64,000 bases of DNA from Promethearchaeia archaeon (GCA_029856045.1 JAHQWG010000003.1:1-64000), one strand, 5' to 3'; shown: positions 2,224 to 18,447, counted from the first letter of the stretch. Made by a program: numbers and translations. Notes: generated from the letters alone by a model not told the origin.

Positions 2224-3720
2224 TTATTCCTTTAAAATTCTTGAGATTTCTTGATTAGCTCTTTTAAAAGTTTCTTTTGATATAATTTGGTGCTCATATA
2301 AAGTATTAAACAACTCCTTATCAATAACCTCTTTTCTACCATCATTGAATTCAACAACATCGACTTCTAAATCTAAATAATGAATTTCCGTAGGTCGAAT
2401 TTCAATAGGTGTATTAATATTATAATATGCACCCTTAAAGGAATCATGACGATCAAAATACTCATTCTTATAACTCCATTCTCCTTCAATGAAATGAACT
2501 AAAGCATAATCTCCTCTTTCAATTGGAATATTTAAACCATCATAATGTCCTTCCGATTTAAATCCCCTTTTTACCTTGAGTTCGAATGGAGTTTTCTCAC
2601 TTTTTTCAATTATTTTCCCTGGCGATAAAGATTCAACCTTAAGTAAAATTTTTTGATGATTTATTGGAATATATGTGTCTTTTTGAAAATATTTCTTATA
2701 AATAAATTCAATAAATGAAGAATTTATTCTTTGTTCTTCTTCAGGAAATTTTTCTAATAAATATTCATTGAAATCAATAATCATTTCAAATTTTTGAGAT
2801 GGGGGGTTAAAGCCAGATTTAAATGAATGATGAAATTGAATAGTTTTACATGTATTTCGCCTAATTTCATCCATTTTTAGTTTTATATTTCCAGAAAATA
2901 AATAATGACATGAAATTGTATCTCGATATACAAGTCCAATATCTTGCTTTTGCTTCATTTTTAAATCTATTGATTTCTTTAATTCTAATATTTCATCAAA
3001 TTCATCTCGAAGGTCTTCCTCATTAGCCTGCATAGCAGCAGTCCGAAAAATGATATCAATTCCTGTTAATTCAAATGATTTTCCTAAATTAAACAATTTT
3101 GATTTAAGATTTGATGATTGGATCTTTTTGCTAAATAAGATTCTTGAATTACCTTTTAATAATAATACAAGATAATTTCCGCTTAATGAGTTAAACGGCA
3201 TTAAAATAGCAGGATTTCTTCCAGAATCTTCCTGAATTATTTGAAAAAAACCTTCGAAATTTTTTTCGTAATAGGAATAAATAATTCCATAATCTGGTTT
3301 ATAATCAGTTGTTGAGAGATGTTGATTATCTTTACCGTAATCATTTTCTGTTATTAAATCTACAATTGAATAACCCCGATTTTCATACGTTCTTATAACC
3401 TTTCCTTTATATATTGAATTACGTGAATATTTTGAAATGAGAGTAACCAAATTTGGAAAATCTTTTTGATTTAAAGGTAATTGTGAGATCAATTCTATAG
3501 GATTTTCAATGTGTTTTTTAAATAAAAAAATATAAACAATAATCCCTTGATTATCATTGCGATTTTGAATAGATATTTCCTTTATTTTATTTTCTTTATC
3601 AGATAATAAATTAAATCTTTTTTGAATTAGAGGAGATGGATAGATTATATTGTATCCAGCCTTTAAAAAGAGGTCGGTTAAAGCAGTTGAATATATACCA
3701 CGTATAAATACATTTTTCAT
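2224..3720 (-). CDS. FAU-1-like RNase E/G-type RNA-binding protein (DUF402)
   Basis: This is about 498 residues and resembles the archaeal FAU-1/AU-1 family. That family has an N-terminal S1-like/RNase E-G-related RNA-binding part and a C-terminal DUF402 domain, and its members bind AU-rich RNA and have been linked to rRNA processing. The C-terminal segment KGAYYNINTPIEIRPTEIHY, then LDLEVDVVEF and KEVIDKELFNTLYEHQIIS, is the typical DUF402 signature (an Asp/Glu-rich metal site). The frame could start at TTG 3735, but I prefer the ATG at 3720 (MKNVFIRGIY), because it is a better start and no SD favours the TTG. It is transcribed away from the archaeosortase gene. Confidence 0.75.
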   Translation of the reverse strand: MKNVFIRGIYSTALTDLFLKAGYNIIYPSPLIQKRFNLLSDKENKIKEISIQNRNDNQGIIVYIFLFKKHIENPIELISQLPLNQKDFPNLVTLISKYSRNSIYKGKVIRTYENRGYSIVDLITENDYGKDNQHLSTTDYKPDYGIIYSYYEKNFEGFFQIIQEDSGRNPAILMPFNSLSGNYLVLLLKGNSRILFSKKIQSSNLKSKLFNLGKSFELTGIDIIFRTAAMQANEEDLRDEFDEILELKKSIDLKMKQKQDIGLVYRDTISCHYLFSGNIKLKMDEIRRNTCKTIQFHHSFKSGFNPPSQKFEMIIDFNEYLLEKFPEEEQRINSSFIEFIYKKYFQKDTYIPINHQKILLKVESLSPGKIIEKSEKTPFELKVKRGFKSEGHYDGLNIPIERGDYALVHFIEGEWSYKNEYFDRHDSFKGAYYNINTPIEIRPTEIHYLDLEVDVVEFNDGRKEVIDKELFNTLYEHQIISKETFKRANQEISRILKE

Positions 3721-3867
3721 TTTAATATATCTCAAAAAGAAAAAATACTATAATTTATTTACTAAATTGATTTAAAAAATTTTATCATTAAAAATAAATA
3801 AGTTAAAAAATTTTTAATTAGAAAAATCAATCTTAAATAAATTAAATAAAAACAGAATTATCCATTC

Positions 3868-4530
3868 ATGAAGCCACCAGAAATTGAATTTGAAGGTAAA
3901 AAATATATTTTTTCTTTAAAATCTTTAATTATTTTTGCAGTAGGAATTCCATTAATTTCATTTTTAATTTATTTCAGCCATGACTGGGTTTGGCTTCATG
4001 ATGTAGTAATCCACCAAACAGTCTTCGTCATGAACCTTTTGACAGGGATGGGGGCTGAAGCCGTTTATAACCCTTATGGACCTCACTATTGGTATTTTGA
4101 TATCCCCGGAAAGCCTAATATTGGCTTCGAAACGTTCTGCACCGGAATTCAAGCAATCGCTATATTTGCAGGAATTATTATCACTATTCCACACTCAAAA
4201 GATCCAATCACAAGTAAAAATATTTGGTGGAGAAAACTTAAAGCTCTAATTATCTCTTCTTTAATATTTTATATTGTAAATATTATTAGGATGGTTATAC
4301 AACTCTATTTATATTATATTGGATATGCTTGGGATGATATACATTATTCAATTTCTGCTGCCAGTTCGTTTATTGCAGCGATTATAATCCTATTACTTCA
4401 TAAGTGGATTCCAGAATTTATCATATCAATTATTTATGCGGGAATATTAATTAAAAGAAGAATTAAAGGTTCCAAAGAGGTTGAATTAAATACTTTATCA
4501 AATGAACAAAATAAAATTGAAAAGATTTAA
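3868..4530 (+). CDS. Archaeosortase/exosortase-family membrane transpeptidase
   Basis: The 220-residue multi-spanning membrane protein carries the three exosortase/archaeosortase residues: Cys91 in FETFCTGIQA, Arg141 in IVNIIRMV and His159 in DDIHYS, each at the edge of a hydrophobic segment. Archaeosortases cut C-terminal tripartite sorting signals (such as PGF-CTERM) off secreted proteins and attach them to the membrane or cell surface. The length is close to a minimal archaeosortase. The C-terminal 30 residues are basic and cytosolic-looking. No protein in the window has an obvious sorting signal, so its targets lie elsewhere. MtrH follows 18 bp downstream, possibly on the same transcript but with no evident functional link. 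Confidence 0.8.
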   Translation: MKPPEIEFEGKKYIFSLKSLIIFAVGIPLISFLIYFSHDWVWLHDVVIHQTVFVMNLLTGMGAEAVYNPYGPHYWYFDIPGKPNIGFETFCTGIQAIAIFAGIIITIPHSKDPITSKNIWWRKLKALIISSLIFYIVNIIRMVIQLYLYYIGYAWDDIHYSISAASSFIAAIIILLLHKWIPEFIISIIYAGILIKRRIKGSKEVELNTLSNEQNKIEKI

Positions 4531-6339: not shown

Positions 6340-7851
6340 TCAGGAAATATATCGAATAATTAAATCTTGAGTTTTTTCTAAAAGTAAAGGTAAGAACTCA
6401 TCAATTTTTTCATTTTTTTCTTCATTATTCACGAAAAAAAGAAAGAACATTGGATTATTTTCAATTATTGTCTTTTTTATTATTATTATATCATCAGGAC
6501 TTATTTTATAAATTGCTTCATTTATATCAGTTTCTCTGAATTTTTCCAAAATTTTATACAAATTGGCTATTTGAGGCGCCAGAATTTCAAAAAAACTCTT
6601 AACAGAGGCTTTTAAAGGTTGTGATTCAGAGAAGATATATTTTATTTCGCCAAGTAATGAAGGACTATAAAAATCAGCAAGTACTAGCCCTTGTTCATTC
6701 ATCAACATAGAAATCTCAATTCCAATGTCTTCTGAAAACCTACTTAAATTAAAGTTAATTAATTCTCTGTTTGGAGACAATAATGATAATCCATGAGAAT
6801 ACGAAGCCAGTATCGTATATACTGAAAAAATACTTGTTAAGAAATATTCAATATTTAATTGCTTTTCTTGATTTATCTCTTCAATTTTTTTGACAATTTG
6901 ATAAACTAAATTTTTTATTTCAGTTGTTTCTTTTATATCTGGATCAACTTTGGAAATTATGATTAACACAGGAATTTCTTGTACATATGTTTTGACATTT
7001 TCGAGAATTTGGTTAAAATAATGAAGACTTTCACCAATTCTTTTGGGATCTCTGACATCTATGAAGTAATAAATTAAATCCGCATCATACAAATAGATTG
7101 GAGCCTTTTTAAGAAATTTATCTCTTGATTTTTCTTGGCCAGATAAGTCCCACGTGAAAACATGGCTGCCGAATGTTTCAAGATGTTTAATTTCTGCTCC
7201 TAATGTAGGTTTTAAACCTAATAATTTGGAATATTTTCGATCAATAGTTAACAAAAAGGATGTTTTTCCAGAATTATCTAGTCCAGCAAGAACGATTTTT
7301 AACTTTCTTGAAGATGTTAGAGGTAAAGTGGGGTTTTCCTCAATTTCAAGCAAATTATTGGTTAATTTTGAAAATGTTGGTTCTAATATATTGTTTTCTA
7401 CATAACCATTATTAATTTTTTCGTCAATTTCGGTTTCAATTTCCAAAATAAATGGTTTTAACCTCTCAATATTATTATAAATAAAACTCCTTTTATTTTC
7501 ATCAATTAATATTGATAAGGTTGAGGCAATTGGTCTCTCTGAAAAGGTAGTTTTAATAAAATGAAAAAACACTAAACTGGAAACTCCAAAATCAGGAAAG
7601 GGTATAATTCCGAAATAATTATAATCGGAAATTTCATTATCAGTAAATAATAAAGAAAGACTTTTAATCGAAATTTGATAAATATCTCTTAAACTCTGCC
7701 TAAACGCCCCATCCACATTTTGGTTAGTATTACATTCATCTAAATTGGACAAGATTGATTCAGGGAAAATATATTTAGGTTCAGGACCACGGTCACCATA
7801 AATAGAAAATATAACTCCTTTTATACAACTTTCTTTGGGTATCTCTCTCAT
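6340..7851 (-). CDS. Longin-like - Rag/Arf-type GTPase - Roadblock/longin-like fusion
   Basis: This 503-residue protein has three parts. Residues 8-150 start with CIKGVIFSIYGDRGPEPKYI and look like a longin fold. Residues 184-345 are a small GTPase with G1 GLDNSGKTS (190-198), G3 WDLSGQ (234-239), a G4-like SKVD (300-303) and G5-like TS (339-340). The rest has the strand pattern of a Roadblock/longin-like domain (ISMLMNEQGLVLADFYS). GTPase plus C-terminal domain resembles eukaryotic Rag/Gtr proteins. G4 has Ser where its two paralogues have the Rag-like His. No lipidation motif or membrane segment is visible. A close paralogue lies at 14902-16332. Function is unknown; a nucleotide switch in membrane or nutrient signalling is a guess from Rag proteins. 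Confidence 0.78.
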   Translation of the reverse strand: MREIPKESCIKGVIFSIYGDRGPEPKYIFPESILSNLDECNTNQNVDGAFRQSLRDIYQISIKSLSLLFTDNEISDYNYFGIIPFPDFGVSSLVFFHFIKTTFSERPIASTLSILIDENKRSFIYNNIERLKPFILEIETEIDEKINNGYVENNILEPTFSKLTNNLLEIEENPTLPLTSSRKLKIVLAGLDNSGKTSFLLTIDRKYSKLLGLKPTLGAEIKHLETFGSHVFTWDLSGQEKSRDKFLKKAPIYLYDADLIYYFIDVRDPKRIGESLHYFNQILENVKTYVQEIPVLIIISKVDPDIKETTEIKNLVYQIVKKIEEINQEKQLNIEYFLTSIFSVYTILASYSHGLSLLSPNRELINFNLSRFSEDIGIEISMLMNEQGLVLADFYSPSLLGEIKYIFSESQPLKASVKSFFEILAPQIANLYKILEKFRETDINEAIYKISPDDIIIIKKTIIENNPMFFLFFVNNEEKNEKIDEFLPLLLEKTQDLIIRYIS

Positions 7852-7936
7852 TAGTTAATATTATACAAACAATGGCTAAAAAAAATTTGTTTTCTAATAA
7901 GCATAAAAATATTGAATAATTATATCAAACATAGGT

Positions 7937-8893
7937 ATGATTGAGAAATTAGCTGAAAATATAAGAAACAATGTTGAAATAATCCAAAAACAATCATTAG
8001 ATCCTATTATAGATTTTGTTAGGACTAAATCATATAAAAGTGAAAGGATTTACAGCGATTACGGTGAAGACAGTGCTTCTATTAAAGAAAATGAGAAGTT
8101 ATTATTATTCACAACTGATGGACTTCGTTCCGAATTTGTTGAAAATTTTCCATATGGAGCAGGATTTAGTGCAATAATGGTAAGCGTTGACGATATTTAT
8201 GCATGCGGAGGAATTCCTCTAGCAGCAAGTTTAGTGGTCAATTATAATAAAGAAAAAATTGGTAACGAAATATTTAGAGGAGCTTGCGAAAGTTCCAGGA
8301 AATTTAAAGTTCCAATTATTAGGGGACATACAAATCAAAACTCAGCGATTTGTTGTCTAGCTATTAGCATGGTTGGAGAAATAAAAAAGGAAGATTATAT
8401 TTCCGCAGGAAATGCTCAAATTGATGATGATATAATATTAATTGTAGACTTTGATGGAAAACCTGGGAATGCTAGCAAATATTATTGGGATACGGCTACG
8501 TTTAAAACTTCTGAACAAATATTGTATTCAAGAAAAAGTATGAATGAAATTGCTACTAAGCATTTATTAAATTCTTCTAAAGATATCTCAAACGCTGGAA
8601 TTTTTGGTACATTGTATCAATTACTAACATATTCTAAAGTAGGTGCTAAAATCGACATAGATTTAATTATTCTTCCAGAGCTTCTGAGAGATTTAAATTA
8701 TTCTATTTTTGATTATTCTAAAATGTATTTAACTACTTCTTTTATAACTACATGCAAGGAGATAAATACAGAAGAGGTAATTAATTTGTTTAAACGATAT
8801 AATCTAGAAGCACATAAAATTGGTAAAGTAATTAAAAAACCTATTGTAAAAATATATAATAATAAGGATGAAACTATTTTATTTGATCTATAG
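7937..8893 (+). CDS. AIR synthase (PurM/ThiL)-related protein
   Basis: The 318 residues follow the PurM/ThiL/SelD superfamily plan. There is an acidic nucleotide/metal loop (DYGEDSAS), LLFTTDGL, then SAIMVSVDDIYACGGIPLA and a C-terminal domain beginning after SMVGEIKK. The segment ISNAGIFGTLYQLL replaces the usual SxxGLxGxLxEM. This pattern is closest to the sll0787/methanogenesis-marker-2 type of AIR-synthase-like proteins rather than true PurM or ThiL. Members use ATP to activate a small substrate, but for this branch the substrate is unknown. A membrane protein gene follows 14 bp downstream. Confidence 0.65.
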   Translation: MIEKLAENIRNNVEIIQKQSLDPIIDFVRTKSYKSERIYSDYGEDSASIKENEKLLLFTTDGLRSEFVENFPYGAGFSAIMVSVDDIYACGGIPLAASLVVNYNKEKIGNEIFRGACESSRKFKVPIIRGHTNQNSAICCLAISMVGEIKKEDYISAGNAQIDDDIILIVDFDGKPGNASKYYWDTATFKTSEQILYSRKSMNEIATKHLLNSSKDISNAGIFGTLYQLLTYSKVGAKIDIDLIILPELLRDLNYSIFDYSKMYLTTSFITTCKEINTEEVINLFKRYNLEAHKIGKVIKKPIVKIYNNKDETILFDL

Positions 8894-8907
8894 GTATAAA
8901 GTTATTT

Positions 8908-9672
8908 GTGAAAATTCGTATGAAATTTAATATCTCAAAAAGAGATTTATCAATATTTATTATTCTACTTTTCTCATTTAATTTAATAAATCTATTATTT
9001 CTCAATTTTGATAATACTAATTCATTTGAAATTAATTATGAAAATCAGAAAATACCGAAAATTTCTCAATCTGAAGCGAGTGAAAATCTAAGTGTGGAAA
9101 TTAAAAGTTATAGTCAATTAATTTGGTTTAGTGGCAATGTTGTAATAGAAACATCCAGTAATATTTCAGGATATTTAAAAATTGGTTTATCAGACGGTTT
9201 AGGAGGAAGTTATTTTCAGAATTTACAGCAAATAATTCCAATTTCCAATACTTCAGAAAATGAGATTTCTGAAATTCCAATAATCCCTCAAATGTATCTG
9301 TTTCCCGGAGTGTATAATTTATCATTTATTATTAATTATATTCCATTAATAAATTCAACTGATGAAACTACTATATTATCTAGCCAATTGCAGATTAATG
9401 TTGGATTAGGGCTTCCAATGCTGATAGTGCTGATTATTATATTTGGAATATCATTTACATTAATTCTTACCAAAAAAGAAACCATAAAAGAAGAGATTTT
9501 AGCCTATGAGCCAGAAAAACAAATTGAAGATGCTTTGGATGCACCTCAAGGTAAGATTAAATGTCCAGAATGCAAAAAAGTCATCGATGAAGGACTTATA
9601 TTTTGTCCGGAATGCGGAAAACGGATTCCTGAATTCCTTAGATATCGTCCGGAAACTACTGTTCCTAGTTAG
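8908..9672 (+). CDS. Membrane protein with C-terminal zinc ribbon
   Basis: The 254-residue protein has an N-terminal hydrophobic anchor or signal (about residues 14-33) and a Ser/Asn-rich, beta-rich outside region. A membrane helix follows near residues 165-187 (LPMLIVLIIIFGISFTLIL), then a cytosolic tail with a rubredoxin-like zinc ribbon, CPECKK...CPECGKR. The outer domain resembles Ig-like or CARDB-like beta domains only in general character. The start may be GTG 8908 or ATG 8920; neither has an SD. I do not recognise a family. The double-CPxCxK ribbon suggests a protein-binding or regulatory tail. Confidence 0.6.
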   Translation: MKIRMKFNISKRDLSIFIILLFSFNLINLLFLNFDNTNSFEINYENQKIPKISQSEASENLSVEIKSYSQLIWFSGNVVIETSSNISGYLKIGLSDGLGGSYFQNLQQIIPISNTSENEISEIPIIPQMYLFPGVYNLSFIINYIPLINSTDETTILSSQLQINVGLGLPMLIVLIIIFGISFTLILTKKETIKEEILAYEPEKQIEDALDAPQGKIKCPECKKVIDEGLIFCPECGKRIPEFLRYRPETTVPS

Positions 9673-9745
9673 CTGTCTATACAAATTGAATTAATAATAT
9701 TTTTTTTAATTTAAAATTTTAAAGAATTTGTGACGTGAATCAAAA

Positions 9746-10261
9746 ATGAATTTTAATTATAAAGGAATAATCTCAGTAATAGGTTCTAGCGAAATAGATT
9801 CTGAAACCGCTGAAAAGGCTCGAAAAATTGGAAAATTAATAGCTAAGAATAATTATATTCTAGCATGTGGTGGAATGGGAGGAGTAATGGAAGCTGCATG
9901 TAAGGGGTGTAAAGAAGAAAATGGTTTAACTATCGGAATTTTGCCGACAGGAAATAAAAATAACGCCAATCCATATGTAGATATTAAAGTTCCAACAGCG
10001 CTTGGGCATGCGAGAAATACAATAGTTGCTTTAACAGGTGATGGAATTATAGCTGTAGCTGGAAATGCTGGTACTTTAAGTGAAATCTGTTTTGCATGGG
10101 TATATAATAAACCAATTTGTGTATTGACTAGTGTAAAGGGATGGTCATCTAAAATGGCAAATCAAAAATTAGATTATAGAAGAAAAGAAAAAATTCATGG
10201 AGCTAATACACCAGAAGAGGCAGTAAAAAAGATTATTGAACTAATTGAAACTAATGAATGA
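9746..10261 (+). CDS. TIGR00725/LOG-like nucleotide-binding protein
   Basis: The 171-residue Rossmann-fold protein has CGGMGGVMEAACKG, a GILPTG segment and LTGDGIIAVAGNAGTLSEI, the order seen in the TIGR00725 (YvdD-related) group of SLOG/LOG proteins. True LOG enzymes release cytokinin-type bases from nucleotides using PGGxGTxxE. Here that motif is AGNAGTLSE, so the glycine loop and the Glu are kept. The substrate is unknown, probably a nucleotide. It is a single gene with AT-rich flanks. Confidence 0.78.
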   Translation: MNFNYKGIISVIGSSEIDSETAEKARKIGKLIAKNNYILACGGMGGVMEAACKGCKEENGLTIGILPTGNKNNANPYVDIKVPTALGHARNTIVALTGDGIIAVAGNAGTLSEICFAWVYNKPICVLTSVKGWSSKMANQKLDYRRKEKIHGANTPEEAVKKIIELIETNE

Positions 10262-10289
10262 AATATTTCAAAAATAAATTTGTAAAGTC

Positions 10290-11072
10290 CTAGTCATGAT
10301 ATTCCTTCTTTTTCTTCTTTTTACCTGACGAAGACCACCCACCAGAACCATCAATAGAATCAGCACCAGCAATTGCTGCAACAATAATGAGAACAACAAT
10401 TAGAACTATAACAAGAAATATCAATAAAAAACATAAGATTCTGAATGCAATAAATATCCAGAAATCATCTTTTATTTTTTTTGTCATTATTGTACCATAC
10501 AACATAATGATTAAGGATATACTAATTAAATATATCATAGAAACTAGAATTACAATCCAATTAGTGATTGCCATGACAAAAATATAAAATAATAACACCA
10601 TAATTATACCTATTGCTATTAAAAGGAATTGAAGCCAAAAATATCCAGCTGCAAGAAATTTATCCTTTAAGATAAGCCCCATTATTAATATAATTGCAGT
10701 TCCCCATACCGACAAACTAACAAAAACATGAACATATATCGAAAAATCCGAAAGCCATATAAATATAGGAACGCTGAGGACTCCGGCAGTAAAAGCGAAC
10801 ATAAAATAAATAATGAGTCCTGAAATATTTTTTCCTTTTCGGGAAACAATGTAAAATATAACGAATAAAATAGCATTTAGGATAATCATTATAACATATA
10901 TGGCGCCAATATCCAATAATGACGCTATTTCTGTGAAAATTATGCCAAAAAGGATTTCACTAATTAACCAAATTAAGGATCCAATAAATATAGTTGGCAT
11001 TACTTTTTGTAAAAATACTGTACGTTTAGAATCAGTAAGAATATATTTAGAAACCATTTTTAACAATCCCAA
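10290..11072 (-). CDS. Polytopic membrane protein, about 7 helices
   Basis: The 260 residues form about seven hydrophobic helices with a short N-terminal cytosolic part and a polar C-terminal tail (SSSGKKKKKKEYHD). Helix spacing and the segment FMFAFTAGVLSVPIFIW faintly resemble the Bax-inhibitor-1/TMBIM fold, which would make it a pH-sensitive calcium leak channel. The paired acidic residues of that family are not clearly placed, so this is only a suggestion. The gene runs toward the LOG-like gene and away from the Rag-like GTPase at 11261. Confidence 0.55.
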   Translation of the reverse strand: MGLLKMVSKYILTDSKRTVFLQKVMPTIFIGSLIWLISEILFGIIFTEIASLLDIGAIYVIMIILNAILFVIFYIVSRKGKNISGLIIYFMFAFTAGVLSVPIFIWLSDFSIYVHVFVSLSVWGTAIILIMGLILKDKFLAAGYFWLQFLLIAIGIIMVLLFYIFVMAITNWIVILVSMIYLISISLIIMLYGTIMTKKIKDDFWIFIAFRILCFLLIFLVIVLIVVLIIVAAIAGADSIDGSGGWSSSGKKKKKKEYHD

Positions 11073-11260
11073 AAATCTATTAAACTGATAATTAAATTAT
11101 TATCATTTATGGATTTATAAAGTTATTGATCAATAATTTTTTTTTTAAGAAATATCAGTCAATAATTTAAATTAGTTTTTTTATTTTATTATCGTAATAT
11201 AAATATATGGCGAAATGTTTTTTTAAAGATATATAGTTAAAAATTATAAAATAATAAGAA

Positions 11261-12205
11261 ATGCAATATCTCAAAAGTGAAGAATTAGCAAAAAAGATTT
11301 TGTTTACAGGTTTAGACTTCGCAGGAAAGAGCTCAATTATTCTTGCTCTACAGAAAGAATTTTCAAAGATAGCTATACTCAAACCTACTCGAGGCGCAGA
11401 CAGGAGCGTATTCTCTTTTTTAGGATATGAATTTAGTACTTGGGACCTCGGCGGTCAGCAGGCTTACAGAATTAATTATTTACGAAATCCGACTAAATAT
11501 TTTGATAAGACTGAGATTGCAATTTATGTAATTGATATTCAAGATCCAGCACGCTTTGATGATGCAATTGGATATTTAGCGGATGTTATTAAGCAATTTA
11601 AAGAACTTGAAATTGAACCTCCACTCTATGTCTTTTTCCATAAAGTTGATCCAGCATTAATTAAAGAATCAAAGACAGATTTAAACAATTTAATATTAGA
11701 TCTTACTGAAAAAATTAATAATGCCATAGAATATGAAAAAATTAATTTTTATGAGACATCTATTTATGATTTATTTTCCATCATGGCAGCTATTTCGGAA
11801 ATTTTACTTAATCTTTATCCGAAATCTAACCTTATTGATAAGACTCTTTCCGAATTCGGGAAAAAAATTGAAGCTGAAGGACTTATGATCATAGATGATA
11901 ATTCATTACTTGTAGGTAGATATTACTCGAATGATGAAATTAAGCAGATTTTAAGTGCAAGTTCTCCATATTTCTTAACATTACATGATAGGTTTAATGA
12001 GGCAGATATGGAAGGTTCTCCAAAAAAAGAGGATGAGGGAATGGTTGTACAAAGATTTGGAAAATATTTTCAATTTAAAGAAATTAAGTTCCGTTCTGAT
12101 CCTGGGGGACGATATTATTTATTGATTGCGAAAGATACTTATGAATTTGATATAAATTTAATAAACGAATTCGTAGAAATTTTCCAAGATATTTTTACAA
12201 TTTAA
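11261..12205 (+). CDS. Rag/Gtr-like small GTPase with C-terminal Roadblock-like domain
   Basis: This 314-residue protein has G1 GLDFAGKSS (17-25), G3 WDLGGQ (61-66), G4 HKVD (127-130) and G5 TS (166-167). The HKxD motif in place of NKxD, the GGQ and the ETSIYD stretch leading into a C-terminal domain are the features of eukaryotic RagA/Gtr1. That domain (about 190-314, with KIEAEGLMIIDDNSLLVGRY) has the Roadblock-like strand pattern by which Rag proteins pair. It lacks the N-terminal longin part of its two paralogues. A Roadblock protein gene follows 153 bp downstream, and the two products may bind each other. AT-rich TATA-like sequence lies about 30-40 bp before the ATG, so the mRNA is probably leaderless. 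Confidence 0.85.
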   Translation: MQYLKSEELAKKILFTGLDFAGKSSIILALQKEFSKIAILKPTRGADRSVFSFLGYEFSTWDLGGQQAYRINYLRNPTKYFDKTEIAIYVIDIQDPARFDDAIGYLADVIKQFKELEIEPPLYVFFHKVDPALIKESKTDLNNLILDLTEKINNAIEYEKINFYETSIYDLFSIMAAISEILLNLYPKSNLIDKTLSEFGKKIEAEGLMIIDDNSLLVGRYYSNDEIKQILSASSPYFLTLHDRFNEADMEGSPKKEDEGMVVQRFGKYFQFKEIKFRSDPGGRYYLLIAKDTYEFDINLINEFVEIFQDIFTI

Positions 12206-12358
12206 AACAGGAAAAACTCATTTGTTCTATAAATTCGAATATACTTGCTCTTTTATTAGTTTATAGAAGAAAAATATTTAACTTTTAATTATTATATTTC
12301 AGTTAGAGAAATTTTCTAAATTAAAAATCAGTAAAAATTTGTCCGAAGTGAAGATTGA

Positions 12359-13300
12359 TTGATAATTTGTCCGAATTGTGGTTTTACCAACGATAATCAA
12401 TCCCAATACTGCCGAAAATGTGGTACCGCAATTTCGAATGTTTTTTCCCCTCCAAAAGTAAAAATTCCAATCTTTAATTCTGAAAATGAAGAAATTATTG
12501 GGGATAAACGAGAGGTTAGAAATGATTTACAACCCATTCAGAGAGATACTAAAGTACCCCCAAAACAAAAAGAGCAAGAAAATACATGGACTCCAGATGT
12601 TTCAATTAATAATAAATATGATTTTAATCTCAGAAAAATACCAAAGGTTTCAGAAATTGATGAACCTACTACAAGAAAAGGGAGACCTGCTTCAATATTA
12701 CAAGAAATACCCCCACAACCCTTTTCACTTCAAAGTATTCCATTAACTAATAGTAAAAAGCAATCTTCCCAAGTTCAAAATATTCAGCCTCCAAAAAGAG
12801 AAGAAATATCTTCATCAATGACGAATGCAATGCAAACCCTTACAAAAAATCTTACAACTAAAAAGAAACCGATGAGAACTTCACAAGAATCTCTTGAAAC
12901 TCAACCGGATACAAAATATGAAGAGATCATCTCTAATAATTTGGATGAAATATTAAGAAACATATCAAGATTAGACAAGAATATAGAAGCTTCGGCAATT
13001 ATTAACCCTGATGGAGTGATATTATCTTCCGCACTTTCAGGAAGAGTAAATGACTCATTATTTGTCTCAATTGGAAAAACTTTATCGGTCATTGGTAATG
13101 ATATAGTTAATGCATTAAATACAGGAGCCTTAAAATCCGTTACAATTAATGGAACTCATGGAAAATTTAGTTTAGCGCCAATAGTCAGTGATGTTCTTCT
13201 TCTAATTTTAACTGGTCCGAGAGGAAAAGCAGGAATCATACATTTAGCTGTTAGCTTATTTAAAAAGCAATTTAAATCATATACGGAAAAGAGAAAATAA
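12359..13300 (+). CDS. Zinc-ribbon Roadblock/LC7 domain protein
   Basis: The 313-residue protein begins with a zinc ribbon (CPNCGFTNDNQSQYCRKCG, residues 4-22). It continues with about 160 low-complexity Pro/Gln/Lys/Ser-rich residues and ends in a Roadblock/LC7 domain (about 190-310). The latter shows LDEILRNISRLDKNIEASAI, INPDGVILSS, and a late TGPRGKAGIIHL. Roadblock domains dimerise and, in eukaryotes, form the Ragulator platform for Rag GTPases; in bacteria MglB regulates MglA. The start is TTG 12359, because an in-frame TGA sits immediately upstream and the ribbon begins at residue 4. It follows a Rag-like GTPase gene, so a regulator/GTPase pair is likely. Confidence 0.82.
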   Translation: MIICPNCGFTNDNQSQYCRKCGTAISNVFSPPKVKIPIFNSENEEIIGDKREVRNDLQPIQRDTKVPPKQKEQENTWTPDVSINNKYDFNLRKIPKVSEIDEPTTRKGRPASILQEIPPQPFSLQSIPLTNSKKQSSQVQNIQPPKREEISSSMTNAMQTLTKNLTTKKKPMRTSQESLETQPDTKYEEIISNNLDEILRNISRLDKNIEASAIINPDGVILSSALSGRVNDSLFVSIGKTLSVIGNDIVNALNTGALKSVTINGTHGKFSLAPIVSDVLLLILTGPRGKAGIIHLAVSLFKKQFKSYTEKRK

Positions 13301-13320
13301 TAATCACTAATTGCTGAATT

Positions 13321-14148
13321 TTAAAAAATATTTGTTAAATTTTTTTGAATTGTTATATTAGTTATTATTTCATAAATAAAAAATTTCTCGTTGTAATCAA
13401 ATTCTTGGATGAATCTGTTTAAATGAAAAATAGATACAATAGGAACTTGAATGTAACTTAATTTAACTTTATTCTCAATTAATGTTACAATCATTGGAAT
13501 AAGTTTAAAGGGCATAAATGCTTTTATTTTTTGAAGCTCATTTTGATTTAAAAGTATAGTAATTAATTTTGATATAACATCAGGATTTTTTATTAAGGCA
13601 CGCATTCTTCTTGATTGAAGTTTTGCTGCTCTATTAATTGCTGATAAATTATTTGTCCTACAATTCCAATGTTTTGCATCAATTAAAAGAATCAGTCTTC
13701 CCAATATGGCTATTACATCTATTTCATACCGTTTTTGATCAGTTTTACGATAATAATTTGAGTGATCAGTAAATCTAAAATTTTTTATTACTTTAAATTC
13801 ATTTTTTTCAAAAATCTTTGAAATTAAATCTTCAAATTCTTTCCAATTCAATAATTTTGACAATTTCATTATATCTATATCTAAATATTTAGCAGCCTCC
13901 AAAACAAAAAGAGATTTTTGAACTTTAATGTACTCATTATAAAATGTAAGACCACATTCAATTGATACCGAAAAATCTTTTATTAGTTCAATATCATATT
14001 GTGAGAAATTCTCAAAAAAATTTTCTTCAAGAGAGATATTAATATAAGTATTTTGAGTTCTATATTGGTCCAATTTACTTATATTGTAATAAATTTTTCG
14101 AAAAAATAAAGAAATGGTTTTATATTTATCAGAAAATTTAGAAATCAT
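13321..14148 (-). CDS. Putative PD-(D/E)XK nuclease (NERD/Mrr-like)
   Basis: The 275-residue protein contains a central KRYEIDVIAILGRLILLIDA followed by KHWNC, matching the E...D...(D/E)xK core of restriction-endonuclease-like folds. It is flanked by EFEDLISKIFEKNEFKVIKN, the usual first helix and strand before the core. NERD and Mrr-type nucleases have this order. The N-terminal 100 residues are helical and may recognise a partner or DNA. No methyltransferase or helicase gene is nearby, so a classical restriction system is unlikely; a lone repair or defence nuclease is possible. The gene is convergent with the Roadblock gene. Confidence 0.65.
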   Translation of the reverse strand: MISKFSDKYKTISLFFRKIYYNISKLDQYRTQNTYINISLEENFFENFSQYDIELIKDFSVSIECGLTFYNEYIKVQKSLFVLEAAKYLDIDIMKLSKLLNWKEFEDLISKIFEKNEFKVIKNFRFTDHSNYYRKTDQKRYEIDVIAILGRLILLIDAKHWNCRTNNLSAINRAAKLQSRRMRALIKNPDVISKLITILLNQNELQKIKAFMPFKLIPMIVTLIENKVKLSYIQVPIVSIFHLNRFIQEFDYNEKFFIYEIITNITIQKNLTNIF

Positions 14149-14275
14149 TAAATTTCAAGGTTGAAATTTCATATAAAATTTTTATTAATCAATTTTTTTA
14201 ATCCTAAGATAATTTATAATACAACGAGACAATTCAATAAGTATAAAATTTCAATAGATAATATGTGAATATAGA

Positions 14276-14713
14276 GTGAAAAGCAAAAAATTGGAAGAAG
14301 AGTTTAATTTAGTTAAACATATGTTGCCAAATGTTATAAACAGTAAATTAGAGGTTGTCAAATTTAAACCCGAAGCGATTATTAATTCTTTATCACTTGA
14401 AACTGATGCAACAAGAGATGAAGCAAATCTTGTAACTCTAGAGGTAATAAGAAAGATTATCTCTGCAAATCTAAAAATTTTAACTGCACCCTTAATCAGG
14501 GAATTAGTCAATGCTACATTATTATCAAAAGGGCTTGAATTATATCGATATCAATATACTAGACTAGGATTACCTTTTTATGATTTTGGTAAGAAATTAG
14601 AATCTCAAAATATTAGTAGCGAAGATATTTTTAATCATTTAAAAACCGAATATGTGGAAGTAAAAAAATTAATAAATAAATTAAAAAATAGAGAATTTAA
14701 GGACAAATCATAA
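14276..14713 (+). CDS. Stand-alone ATP-cone domain protein
   Basis: The 145-residue protein holds one ATP-cone (about residues 26-92): VVKFKPEAIINSL, a helix ending VIRKIISAN, then LIRELVNATLLSKGLELY. The next segment, RYQYTRLGLPFYDFG, is the conserved stretch that follows the ATP-cone in anaerobic ribonucleotide reductase (NrdD). There the cone is the allosteric site that turns activity on with ATP and off with dATP. Here no reductase body follows and no NrdD is in the window. The product could be a separately coded activity switch, or a nucleotide sensor regulating transcription as NrdR does; it has no zinc ribbon, which argues against NrdR. The start is GTG 14276; nearby upstream ATG/GTG are closed by stops. 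Confidence 0.7.
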   Translation: MKSKKLEEEFNLVKHMLPNVINSKLEVVKFKPEAIINSLSLETDATRDEANLVTLEVIRKIISANLKILTAPLIRELVNATLLSKGLELYRYQYTRLGLPFYDFGKKLESQNISSEDIFNHLKTEYVEVKKLINKLKNREFKDKS

Positions 14714-14901
14714 GTTGCGTTATAATAGATTAAGGAAAGTTAATCTTATTTTTTAAAGAGTTAATGATTTCTAACGATTCTTTAATTAAATTAAATTTAT
14801 TTTTTGGAACCAATTAAAAATAATTGAAGATTTAAATAAGTTAAATAGATGAAACTAGTAAAAATCTATTTATTGAAATAATTGATAGGAAAGGGTATAA
14901 G

Positions 14902-16332
14902 TTGGCTAATAGTCAGAATTCAAATAACGTAAAGAATATAGAAGAGTCTTCTATTATTAAAGCTATTGTTGTATCCATTTTTGATGCGGAAGGGCCAACA
15001 CCTAAATATTATTATCCAGAAAATTTAAATGAAGAATCACGGCTTTTAATAGCAATGAAAACCATAAGTTTGCTTATGGGGGAGGCAACATATCAAGATG
15101 GCAATGCAATAGAAGGCGTTAATTATTTTGGCATTTTACCTTTCCCAGATATAAAATTAAATGGATTGACCTATTTTTTTCTTATATATGACCCTGAAGC
15201 AAGAGGTCAAGCAAAAGCATCTACAATTACTATTTTAGTTGACGAGGAAAACAAATCATTTTTCTATGATAATATTAAATATTTACGAGTTATTATTGAC
15301 AAAGCTGCTTCTCAGATCCAAACTGCTCAGGACTCAAATGAAATGAAAAACATTTTAAATTCTCTACGTATGCAATTATTAAATTTTATCAAAGATTTAA
15401 AACACCCATTTTCTCAAACCAGACAAATAAAAATTTTATTTGCGGGATTGGATAGGTCCGGTAAAAGTTCATTTGTTCTTGGAATACAGAAAAAATATTC
15501 TGAAATAATAAAAGTCTTACCAACTAAAGGTGTATCAAGAGAGATAAGTGAGTTATTTGGTGCTCAACTCATACGCTGGGAACTTGGTGGTCAGAAAAGC
15601 TACCGAGATCAGTATCTTAAGGAAAGCGAAGTTTATTTATATAACGTTGATTTATTATTTTTCTTGATAGATGTTCAAGATTTAAAAAGAAGGGAAGAAG
15701 GATTAAAATATTTTAAAAAATTAATTGAATCTCTTGAAAACATTGATGATTTCCCTCCTATTGTATTATGTTTCCATAAGACAGACCCAGACATAAAAAA
15801 TGAAGAAAAAATTCGTGAAAACATTGAATTCTTAATTATGAGAATTCAAGAATTTACCCAAAATTATTATATTAAAATATTTGAAACATCAATATTTGAC
15901 CACTGGTCATTAGTCTCTGCCTTTTCCTACGGTATTAGTAGATTATCTCCAAATAGAGAGATTTTTAAAAAGCAATTGGAGTGGTTTGCTAATAAAACAG
16001 ATTCTGAAGCTATTTTACTCTTAAATGAAAAAGCAATAATTTTATCAAATTTTTCAAGAGATGATGTCTCAGGAAAAGTTTTCGAGATTTCCGCCCCTCA
16101 TTTTCAAACATTATATAAGACATTTAAAGAATTTAAGATTTTGAAAAAAGATTTCCTTGTATCTTCTGGAATTTCTCAAACTAAAAAGATATTATTTAAG
16201 AAACTTAGTATTGGGAAATTTAATTTATATCTTCTCCTATTCATTAGTAGTGAAGATTATATTGAGAAAATTGATGAAAATTTGGAAGAGTTTATTTCAA
16301 GAATTGAAGTATTGATACAAACATATATTTAG
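14902..16332 (+). CDS. Longin-like - Rag-type GTPase - Roadblock/longin-like fusion
   Basis: This 476-residue protein is a paralogue of the one at 6340-7851 with the same three-part layout. A longin-like N-terminus (about 17-150, IIKAIVVSIFDAEGPTPKYY) is followed by a GTPase with G1 GLDRSGKSS (182-190), G3 WELGGQ (226-231), G4 HKTD (292-295) and G5 ETSIFD. The C-terminus contains SEAILLLNEKAIILSNFS. The G3 box has Glu in place of the usual Asp. Both longin-like parts share the pattern xSIxxxxGPxPKYxxPE. It is probably a cytosolic nucleotide switch. The start is TTG 14902, with no better start before the conserved region. Confidence 0.8.
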   Translation: MANSQNSNNVKNIEESSIIKAIVVSIFDAEGPTPKYYYPENLNEESRLLIAMKTISLLMGEATYQDGNAIEGVNYFGILPFPDIKLNGLTYFFLIYDPEARGQAKASTITILVDEENKSFFYDNIKYLRVIIDKAASQIQTAQDSNEMKNILNSLRMQLLNFIKDLKHPFSQTRQIKILFAGLDRSGKSSFVLGIQKKYSEIIKVLPTKGVSREISELFGAQLIRWELGGQKSYRDQYLKESEVYLYNVDLLFFLIDVQDLKRREEGLKYFKKLIESLENIDDFPPIVLCFHKTDPDIKNEEKIRENIEFLIMRIQEFTQNYYIKIFETSIFDHWSLVSAFSYGISRLSPNREIFKKQLEWFANKTDSEAILLLNEKAIILSNFSRDDVSGKVFEISAPHFQTLYKTFKEFKILKKDFLVSSGISQTKKILFKKLSIGKFNLYLLLFISSEDYIEKIDENLEEFISRIEVLIQTYI

Positions 16333-16363
16333 GAAAAGAAAATTTAACTCCTATTTTTAAAAT

Positions 16364-17689
16364 TCAATAATTGTTAGAATAAGAATAGTTTTGATACATT
16401 GCTTCCTTTTTCTTCTTATTTTTACTAGTTTTTATAAAAATGTAAATTATAACTAATAGAGTTATTAGTAAAATTAATCCGACTATAATATACATCATAG
16501 TATTATCTTCTATTAAATTTACTTCAAGCACTTTAACGTTTATTAATGTATCATACTTGAAAATTGCATTAGATTGAAATACAGGACTTGGAAGAACCGA
16601 ATATTCACTAAATATTGATAAAGATGGAACTTCGAACCATGCTCCAATGTTCGCGGTTAAATGAATAAAGTCCATATAATTAAAATAGTTAAATCCAGCG
16701 CTACCCCAAGTTGGATCACATGGTATCCATCCTAGATTCGGGACGTAATATTCTAACCAAGCATGTAATAAAGCATTAGAATCAGGTTCTCCTGCAGAAA
16801 GTTGTGAATTTTTTAAAAAATTGCTATAATAACTCCATTCTGTGCCAACTATTGGATTATAGTTTGGTGTAGCTTGACCAGAAGCAGTAACATTGCTTAA
16901 AATCATGCCCGTGCATTTTCTAGCTGGAATTCCTTGGATTCTTAGTAAAGTAATCATCAAATCAGAGAATTCACTACAATCTCCCTCTTTATTTTGATAT
17001 GCCCACAGGGCCCCCCATTCTACGGGTTGTCCTACATATTCTATATTTTCAGAAACATAATCGTAAATTGCTTTAGCTTTATCAATTGGGTTGCTTAATC
17101 CTTCAGTAAGGCTATTAGAAAGAGCTATTAAAGTGGGGTCATTCATTTCAAAGAGTGGTTCTGCTTGACAATAAAGGTCATGAATTATATCTGAAGTGTT
17201 ATACGCACCAATATCTCCCCCAGGAACTCCCTCATCAAAAGAAATTTCATTCAATGTTATAACGTATTTCTGATTAATCGAAATAGGAGCACTATTCATA
17301 TTATTAATTGTTCTATTAAATAAATAGTAATGATTACCGAATTTATCTGTTTGAGTAATTATTTCAGTTCCATTACCTTCAATTGAATGAGTTTCTAATG
17401 ACGATACTTGTATCGGGGGAGTAAATACATATTCGCTAGGAATACGATTATCAAAAAAAGAGTTTTTTAAATAAAAAGTATAAGAATTTGTACCTAAACG
17501 AGTTAAAGTCCAATTAATCGTAATTTCGTAAGTAACATTTTGAATCATATTATAATGTGTTATTCCTGGGTATTCTGATTTAATCGAAACTTGTTCTAAA
17601 CCTTTCACAAAATTAAAGTGAATAAATGAGAGATGACAGAAAGTTAATTCAAATAAAATAAATGTTAATATAATTGTTTTTTTTTGCAT
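16364..17689 (-). CDS. Exported transglutaminase-like protein with C-terminal membrane anchor
   Basis: The 441-residue protein has a hydrophobic N-terminal signal (residues 4-28) and a beta-rich domain. A transglutaminase-like core follows, with the full triad Cys238 (GDCSEFSDL), His309 (LLHAWLEYY) and Asp325 (CDPTWG). A C-terminal helix (about 398-420) and a Lys-rich cytosolic end complete it, so the catalytic part faces outside. Such domains act as cysteine peptidases or cross-linkers of proteins. The substrate is unknown; surface protein processing is a reasonable guess. It is convergent with the preceding GTPase gene. Confidence 0.82.
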   Translation of the reverse strand: MQKKTIILTFILFELTFCHLSFIHFNFVKGLEQVSIKSEYPGITHYNMIQNVTYEITINWTLTRLGTNSYTFYLKNSFFDNRIPSEYVFTPPIQVSSLETHSIEGNGTEIITQTDKFGNHYYLFNRTINNMNSAPISINQKYVITLNEISFDEGVPGGDIGAYNTSDIIHDLYCQAEPLFEMNDPTLIALSNSLTEGLSNPIDKAKAIYDYVSENIEYVGQPVEWGALWAYQNKEGDCSEFSDLMITLLRIQGIPARKCTGMILSNVTASGQATPNYNPIVGTEWSYYSNFLKNSQLSAGEPDSNALLHAWLEYYVPNLGWIPCDPTWGSAGFNYFNYMDFIHLTANIGAWFEVPSLSIFSEYSVLPSPVFQSNAIFKYDTLINVKVLEVNLIEDNTMMYIIVGLILLITLLVIIYIFIKTSKNKKKKEAMYQNYSYSNNY

Positions 17690-17802
17690 AATATTATAAT
17701 TCTTATTTTTATCGATCTAATAAAGTTAAAAAATATAAAATTGACTATTTTAAATCGGTAAATTCCATTCAAAAAAATCATTAATCTAAAAGAGGCTTAT
17801 GT

Positions 17803-18447
17803 TTGATTTATAAAGTATTTTTGATAGATGGGAGTGATGGTATTCTTATTTTAGAAAAATCTTTTAAGGAATTTAATAAAAGTAAAAACTTAAAAACAGA
17901 ATTATTAACTGATTTCTTTAAAGAAGTAAATAAGATGATTGATGATTTACAAGATGCCATGACCAAGGGAAGTAGATTAGGTGATACAAATAGGATTATT
18001 TCTGGAGATTACTCCACGATAATAATGTATTACCATTCATTGTCTCATGTGCTATTTTGCTCAATATCTGATGATGATGATGATAAAGAAAAACTAATAG
18101 AAATACTACAAAATTTTGGGTTAAAATTTTATGAAAAATATGAAAAGGATTTAAAGAAATTTAGAAAAACCTCAGAAAAAAAATATTTTTTAAGTTTTAT
18201 TGATGAAATAGATATATTATCAGTTAGAGGTCGTGGGGCAGAAATATTACCAAAACTGATTATAGCAAAAAATGTTCTTGAACGTATCAAAAATATGGGT
18301 ATAATAAATGATAAGGAACTAAAAATTGCTCTAGAATGTAATGGAAAAAAGTCCCTTCTTAAAATTTCAAGGAATTTAAGTATAGTCGAGAGCAAAATAA
18401 GAGAGAGTCTTAAAAAATTGGAAAATTTAGAAATTATTAAATTATAA
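17803..18447 (+). CDS. Longin-like domain protein with C-terminal helical/winged-helix region
   Basis: The 214-residue protein opens with IYKVFLIDGSDGILILEKSF, then a helix (LLTDFFKEVNKMID) and STIIMYYHSLSHVLFCSISD. This strand-turn-strand-helix pattern matches longin/SNARE-like folds and is similar in style to the N-termini of the two long GTPases nearby. After an acidic DDDDD stretch and a charged helix, the last 60 residues (SLLKISRNLSIVESKIRESL) resemble a winged helix. Function is unknown; longin domains serve as docking units for GTPases and coat proteins. The start is TTG 17803. Confidence 0.55.
   Translation: MIYKVFLIDGSDGILILEKSFKEFNKSKNLKTELLTDFFKEVNKMIDDLQDAMTKGSRLGDTNRIISGDYSTIIMYYHSLSHVLFCSISDDDDDKEKLIEILQNFGLKFYEKYEKDLKKFRKTSEKKYFLSFIDEIDILSVRGRGAEILPKLIIAKNVLERIKNMGIINDKELKIALECNGKKSLLKISRNLSIVESKIRESLKKLENLEIIKL

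Follow-up and report, generated by a model that had tools for sequence, protein, structure and literature searches.

A Rag-family GTPase with a predicted folliculin-type longin module in a Lokiarchaeal gene cluster

Folliculin (FLCN) is the human protein that turns a Rag off. It is a separate longin-DENN GTPase-activating protein (GAP) that acts on RagC and is paired with FNIP. The origin of the longin GAPs in the mTORC1 pathway and the way in which Asgard GTPases are turned off are the questions addressed here with a stretch of 64,000 nucleotides (the window; GCA_029856045.1, JAHQWG010000003.1:1-64000) from a Lokiarchaeal genome. Five open reading frames (ORFs) of the window, named here RagL1, RagS, ZnRB, RagL2 and LG, encode three GTPases, a zinc-ribbon Roadblock protein and a longin-like protein, and all five are found at the positions and on the strands (Table 1) that had been assigned to them in an earlier inspection made without database searches (the sequence-only reading). 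The same genes occur in relatives, in which the loci that were read carry L numbers; the nearest named records are 'Candidatus Lokiarchaeota' metagenome-assembled genomes (MAGs), and more distant holders are Prometheoarchaeum, Harpocratesius and Sigynarchaeum. The main subject is RagL2, a Rag-family GTPase preceded by a longin domain of predicted folliculin type.

The longin-GTPase-Roadblock architecture is not new, as proteins with the same domain order, of a Rag-like class, have already been reported for MK-D1, where one Rag-like pair lies in an operon (Tran et al. 2024, PMC10933270). The main text of that study makes no mention of a folliculin-type longin or of a longin arginine. Two further Lokiarchaeal Rag-like GTPases serve for comparison: LokiRagM (8zla, 9m28) and LokiRagO (8yl2), the latter described in its PDB title as a homotetrameric, GTP-bound RagA-like GTPase. 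The GTPase and Roadblock parts of RagL2 align with 8yl2, which, unlike RagL2, has no N-terminal longin. The eukaryotic Rags (RagA/Gtr1 and RagC/Gtr2) share the C-terminal Roadblock domain and also lack the N-terminal longin found in RagL1 and RagL2. Bacterial MglA/MglB resembles RagL2 in that a small GTPase is regulated (by prediction, in the case of RagL2) by a domain of the Roadblock/longin superfamily, but the regulator MglB is a separate Roadblock homodimer, and for MglA the use of an arginine in its own switch I has been proposed (PMC10933270). The folliculin-type longin and its invariant arginine are new here and were absent from the sequence-only reading; a literature search, with subscription journals and preprint servers largely outside its coverage, found no paper in which folliculin-type or DENN longins are linked with Asgard archaea.

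The longin domain of RagL2

An AlphaFold2 model of RagL2, computed with 41 orthologues as input (mean predicted local distance difference test, pLDDT, of 73), contains an N-terminal longin domain with two strands, a helix, three strands and two helices, which is followed by the GTPase and Roadblock-type domains (limits in Table 1). Foldseek searches with this model return chains of LokiRagO, RagA/RagC and Gtr1/Gtr2 as first matches, with a Rag alignment of about 300 columns, and match the N-terminus to a solved Lokiarchaeal longin (8yqg). In PDB sequence searches, the RagL2 longin profile alone retrieves nothing significant, and the RagL1 longin profile alone retrieves only 8yqg, weakly (E 0.019).

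At the level of sequence families, the isolated RagL2 longin matches Folliculin (PF11704) at 24.1 bits (E 3.6e-5; cut-off 23.3). The score is 22.6 bits in the full protein and 23.6 bits in the genome search, where the RagL2 gene is the best PF11704 match of the window's genome. Folliculin also ranks first among families for each of 10 orthologous RagL2 longin domains, and 15 of 18 full-length orthologues match it. HHalign pairs FLIYDPEARGQAK of RagL2 with FFIKDSLARGFQR of human FLCN, so that Arg101 falls on FLCN Arg164. These profile comparisons indicate that the RagL2 longin is very probably homologous to the folliculin class.

Arg101-Gly102 is invariant in all 59 distinct RagL2 sequences, whose identity goes down to about 31%. 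In the model, Arg101 sits in the loop that joins strand 86-96 (beta4) to strand 104-114 (beta5). An arginine between longin beta4 and beta5 defines the DENN GAPs (PMC12803157); FLCN Arg164 and NPRL2 Arg78 sit in analogous loops (PMC7464330), and SMCR8 Arg147 has been observed pointing at BeF3 (PMC8213707). The switch-II glutamine is kept in nearly all RagL2 orthologues.

Longins of this type extend well beyond RagL2. The RagL2 longin profile finds homologues in 110 of 228 Asgard genomes, and PF11704 is matched above its cut-off in 40 of the 228 and in none of 14 control genomes. The xRG motif is present in the longin of all 29 loci read from the PF11704 search, a selection by profile that itself favours the motif. 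Lokiarchaeia also encode longin fusions of about 350 residues with Ras/Rab-type GTPases, nearly all with an xRG loop (L289, L290, L292, L294, L296, L297, L299 and L301). Other Asgard families contain longin proteins, about 170 to 450 residues long, that have no detected GTPase, and several of these exceed the Folliculin cut-off (25 to 30 bits, E down to 6e-7).

Several side observations concern the same family. Some of the longin-Ras/Rab-type fusions are encoded side by side in pairs, and at L299 the arginine has been lost from one of the two. Longins with no detected GTPase, above or near the Folliculin cut-off and with xARG(G), were read in other Asgard families at L310, L314, L315, L320, L321, L323, L328 and L332-L358. 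Three of them (L310, L314 and L321; 417-450 residues) contain, towards the C-terminus, a stretch LLLNERILIVGR...LREFLP whose DENN-like look to the eye is unproven; in HHalign, the possible DENN-like region of these stand-alone proteins did not align with the FLCN DENN domain. Large proteins at L318, L326, L330 and L331 have a folliculin-type longin with xRG near the C-terminus of the stretch read.

Table 1. Features of the window discussed in the text, with positions counted from its first nucleotide
Feature	Position	Strand	Description and evidence
RagL2	14902..16332	+	Longin - Rag-family GTPase - Roadblock, 476 aa; PF04670 86.1 bits; AlphaFold2 model; Foldseek
Predicted folliculin-type longin of RagL2, residues 19-165	14956..15396	+	PF11704; AlphaFold2 longin topology; 8yqg match
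Arg101 codon, candidate arginine finger, beta4-beta5 loop	15202..15204	+	Invariance, HHalign, AlphaFold2 model
RagL2 GTPase domain, residues 175-366	15424..15999	+	G1 GLDRSGKSS, G3 WELGGQ, G4 HKTD
RagL2 C-terminal Roadblock-type domain, residues 352-475	15955..16326	+	AlphaFold2 topology; Foldseek against Rag chains
RagL1	6340..7851	-	Longin - Rag-family GTPase - C-terminal domain; PF04670 77.2 bits; G3 WDLSGQ, G4 SKVD
RagS	11261..12205	+	GTPase with Roadblock-type C-terminus; PF04670 95.4 bits; G3 WDLGGQ, G4 HKVD
ZnRB	12359..13300	+	Zinc ribbon - disordered linker - Roadblock domain
LG	17803..18447	+	Longin (about 17806-18219) and winged helix (about 18268-18426)

RagS, RagL1 and the Rag family

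All three GTPases belong to the Rag family. Their top Pfam family is Gtr1_RagA (PF04670; cut-off 22 bits), ahead of Arf, and the C-terminal Roadblock domain of the family is present in RagL2, by AlphaFold2 and Foldseek, and in RagS, by homology to 8yl2. A tree was made of 68 GTPase (G) domains, comprising paralogues from the same genome, orthologues, RagA, RagC, Gtr1, Gtr2, Arf1, Arl3, Sar1, Rab1 and the 8yl2/8zla fragments; the eukaryotic reference sequences were checked against PDB chains, the fragments were taken from alignments and MglA was not included. In this tree, eukaryotic RagA/Gtr1 and RagC/Gtr2 fall with the Asgard Rag-like proteins into one 48-row clade (100/99) that excludes Arf/Sar and Rab, and the Asgard set is specific sister to neither the RagA nor the RagC branch. 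A constraint tree that places the window-type Asgard set beside Arf is disfavoured, though not formally rejected (P of the approximately unbiased test, p-AU, 0.056). The sequence-only reading had called the GGQ switch and Roadblock-like C-terminus of the short GTPase, RagS, a combination typical of eukaryotic RagA/Gtr1: both features are there, and the family assignment stands when set against Rag/Gtr and Arf, but none of the three proteins is RagA itself.

The G4 motifs were likewise read correctly, with HKxD in RagS and RagL2 and SKVD in RagL1. HKxD was set aside as a marker of Rags, not being conserved among RagL2 orthologues; it is constant among relatives of RagS, most RagL2 relatives have NKxD, and the RagL1 family has SKxD or TKxD.

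RagS matches 8yl2 at 285 bits and forms its own clade with it (100/99), and the RagS of a Prometheoarchaeum MAG (L169) is almost the same sequence as 8yl2. By these sequence criteria RagS is classified as the orthologue of LokiRagO. Second copies of RagS stand in tandem in some relatives (L156, L158 and L165).

RagL1 and RagL2 are sister paralogues (93/84 in the G-domain tree), with 35% identity over nearly the full length, and their longin profiles match each other at 2.9e-33 in HHalign. The RagL1 longin has no arginine equivalent to Arg101; the loop varies freely among 31 sequences, and 0 of 16 RagL1 proteins match Folliculin. In the Prometheoarchaeum/Harpocratesius family, RagL1 orthologues (L166, L169, L171 and L172) have a switch II of the form WDIPGQ or WDIPGK, the catalytic glutamine being gone in the latter. 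The likeness of WDIPGQ to the WDFPGQ of eukaryotic RagC was considered as a sign of a RagC-like protein and rejected as convergence, because the tree places RagL1 away from RagC.

Candidate functions of the longin and of the cluster

Family membership, domain order, the folliculin-longin homology and the position and invariance of the arginine are read from sequence or model, and with them we infer a GAP activity, its substrate and a pairing of the GTPases. The RagL2 longin would be a member of an Asgard-wide folliculin-type longin family in which Arg101 most likely accelerates GTP hydrolysis as an arginine finger; its target would be the RagL2 GTPase domain, reached across a dimer, or else the neighbouring RagS and RagL1. 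RagL1 would be the sister copy that lost the finger, like a non-catalytic partner, RagS (LokiRagO) would be a free switch, and the C-terminal Roadblock domains would join the GTPases as they do in eukaryotic Rags. To the arginine-finger GAP function, judged from sequence, we give about even chances. The whole arrangement, with RagL2 as a Rag-family switch that carries a predicted folliculin-type GAP module of its own, RagL1 as its finger-less sister and RagS as the free switch, appears to us evenly balanced between right and wrong.

Several points weigh against a folliculin-like GAP. RagL2 has no C-terminal DENN domain, the GTPase and Roadblock domains coming after the longin instead, and for this reason it is not filed as a folliculin. 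The HHalign match of its longin to FLCN is marginal (E about 0.002-0.005), and the PF11704 match spans about a third of the Pfam model. A phmmer search of 1585 ORFs with human FLCN yields no significant match, and neither does one with NPRL2. FLCN Arg164 itself has been proposed as the arginine finger for RagC, but its own role has been questioned (PMC8213707).

The longin of RagL2 may alternatively be a platform for dimerisation, guanine nucleotide exchange factor (GEF) action, membrane or effector docking, or autoinhibition, with Arg101-Gly102 holding the hairpin or binding a partner. Longin and Roadblock domains are often GEF platforms (TRAPP) or docking modules (SNAREs) (PMC10933270), Gly102 is as invariant as Arg101, and RagL1 retains a longin without the arginine, so the longin has uses besides the finger. 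However, the invariant arginine lies in a predicted surface loop that corresponds to the loop which is catalytic in four types of longin/DENN GAP, and an arginine common to the Rab-type fusions and lost in one paralogue exceeds what fold maintenance needs. A platform of this kind is conceivable, though we hold it to be distinctly less probable than an even bet.

The cluster itself can be explained in other ways. The whole genome has 15 strong Rag-type genes (PF04670 above 60 bits), so three of them within 10 kb are unusual (P = 0.012 for random placement). As far as contigs extend, about 50 MAGs of the same family keep the order archaeosortase - RagL1 - AIR - LOG - RagS - ZnRB - NERD - RagL2 - transglutaminase - LG - HhH - methyltransferase. 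From the clustering in the window the sequence-only reading had proposed a working Rag switch on a Ragulator-like scaffold, with ZnRB and LG binding the GTPases. Roadblock and longin genes do adjoin Rag-family GTPases in this conserved order, and eukaryotic Rags bind Roadblock dimers (PMC10933270), but genes unconnected to GTPase signalling are held in the block as well as or better than the GTPases: the archaeosortase, LOG-like, NERD nuclease, transglutaminase and methyltransferase genes are equally collinear. In a neighbouring family, the transglutaminase is linked to RagL2 at 7 of 7 loci, NERD at 6 of 7 and RagS at 3 of 7, some contigs being short. Conserved synteny was thus rejected as a sign of a functional unit; the linkage is real and vertically inherited, but by itself no evidence of a Rag-Ragulator unit, because unrelated neighbours share it. 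Moreover, ZnRB was not found at E 1e-8 in the Prometheoarchaeum and Harpocratesius genomes, which retain the GTPases (the trio is still together in two MAGs of the Prometheoarchaeum family, L238 and L239, and about 80 kb separate RagS and RagL1 from RagL2 in Harpocratesius), the NERD gene looks like the older neighbour of ZnRB, and the 153 bp between RagS and ZnRB do not suggest a tight operon. The scaffold proposal is accordingly unlikely, and ZnRB and LG are possible, unproven partners of the GTPases. According to Tran et al. (PMC10933270), GTPase genes do not as a rule share operons with genes for Roadblock or longin proteins, and matching GTPases to GAPs or GEFs by genome layout is difficult.

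It may also be that old duplication and slow rearrangement produced the cluster and that its genes do not act as a unit, which falls only a little short of an even chance. The sister relationship of RagL1 and RagL2, the tandem RagS copies of relatives and the conservation of the entire block, unrelated genes included, agree with this, as does a Sigynarchaeum-related family in which RagL2 occurs without RagS and RagL1 and ZnRB lies beside other block members. RagS, however, is no close duplicate of either RagL1 or RagL2, which means that tandem duplication alone does not account for its linkage. Such a history leaves the domain finding in RagL2 untouched and is compatible with a switch that carries its own GAP module.

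If RagL2 is indeed a Rag-family switch with its own folliculin-type GAP module, its domain order suggests that one protein once combined switch and off-button, and a RagL2-type protein is a possible ancestor of FLCN-type GAPs. In a broader and more tentative scenario, which we consider rather doubtful, the eukaryotic longin GAPs (FLCN, SMCR8/C9orf72, perhaps NPRL2) would derive from an Asgard finger-bearing longin fused in cis to Rag- or Rab-like GTPases; eukaryotes would have inherited or made the split version, RagL2 would be a living one-piece form and RagL1 its finger-less companion, as FNIP is to FLCN. With a folliculin-type arginine in the same polypeptide as a Rag-family GTPase, both questions posed at the outset can be tested by one point mutation, and a paralogue of RagL2, LokiRagO, has already been crystallised.

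ZnRB, LG and other genes

The zinc-ribbon Roadblock nature of ZnRB, noted in the sequence-only reading, is borne out by an N-terminal zinc ribbon and by a Roadblock domain that stays under the Pfam cut-off (19.7 bits); with the profile of its family, solved Robl_LC7 chains are retrieved (E 1.5e-6). ZnRB adjoins a NERD gene in three other families of the class, and the two genes (12359-14148 in the window, the second of NERD nuclease type) stay adjacent in distant families that have no Rag cluster (L182, L183 and L184).

LG was correctly seen as longin-like: its AlphaFold2 model (pLDDT 88) shows a longin topology followed by a winged helix, and Foldseek retrieves the Sec22b and VAMP7 longins. 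Pfam gives no longin match for LG and has TrmB/HTH matches to it. Entries containing GATOR1 (NPRL2/3-type chains) are among the top Foldseek matches, with a best E of 7.5e-4 and a low TM-score, and a longin with a winged helix would fit an NPRL2-like GATOR1 subunit; sequence profiles do not (HHalign E 0.5 against NPRL2/NPRL3, no NPR2/NPR3 Pfam match), and this identity was rejected. At the finger position of the longin hairpin, most LG relatives have Arg or Lys, and those of the window's genus have His. Fusions of a longin with a TrmB/ArsR-type winged helix recur in several Asgard families (L300, a longin-TrmB protein, L311 and LG itself, 17803-18447).

Elsewhere in the window, an RNase E/G-like ORF (2224-3735; 45 bits, far under the cut-off) adjoins an archaeosortase H gene (3868-4530; 315 bits, above the cut-off). 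The region 38097-63863 holds genes that, judged from translations alone, resemble formylmethanofuran dehydrogenase, heterodisulfide reductase and hydrogenase genes.

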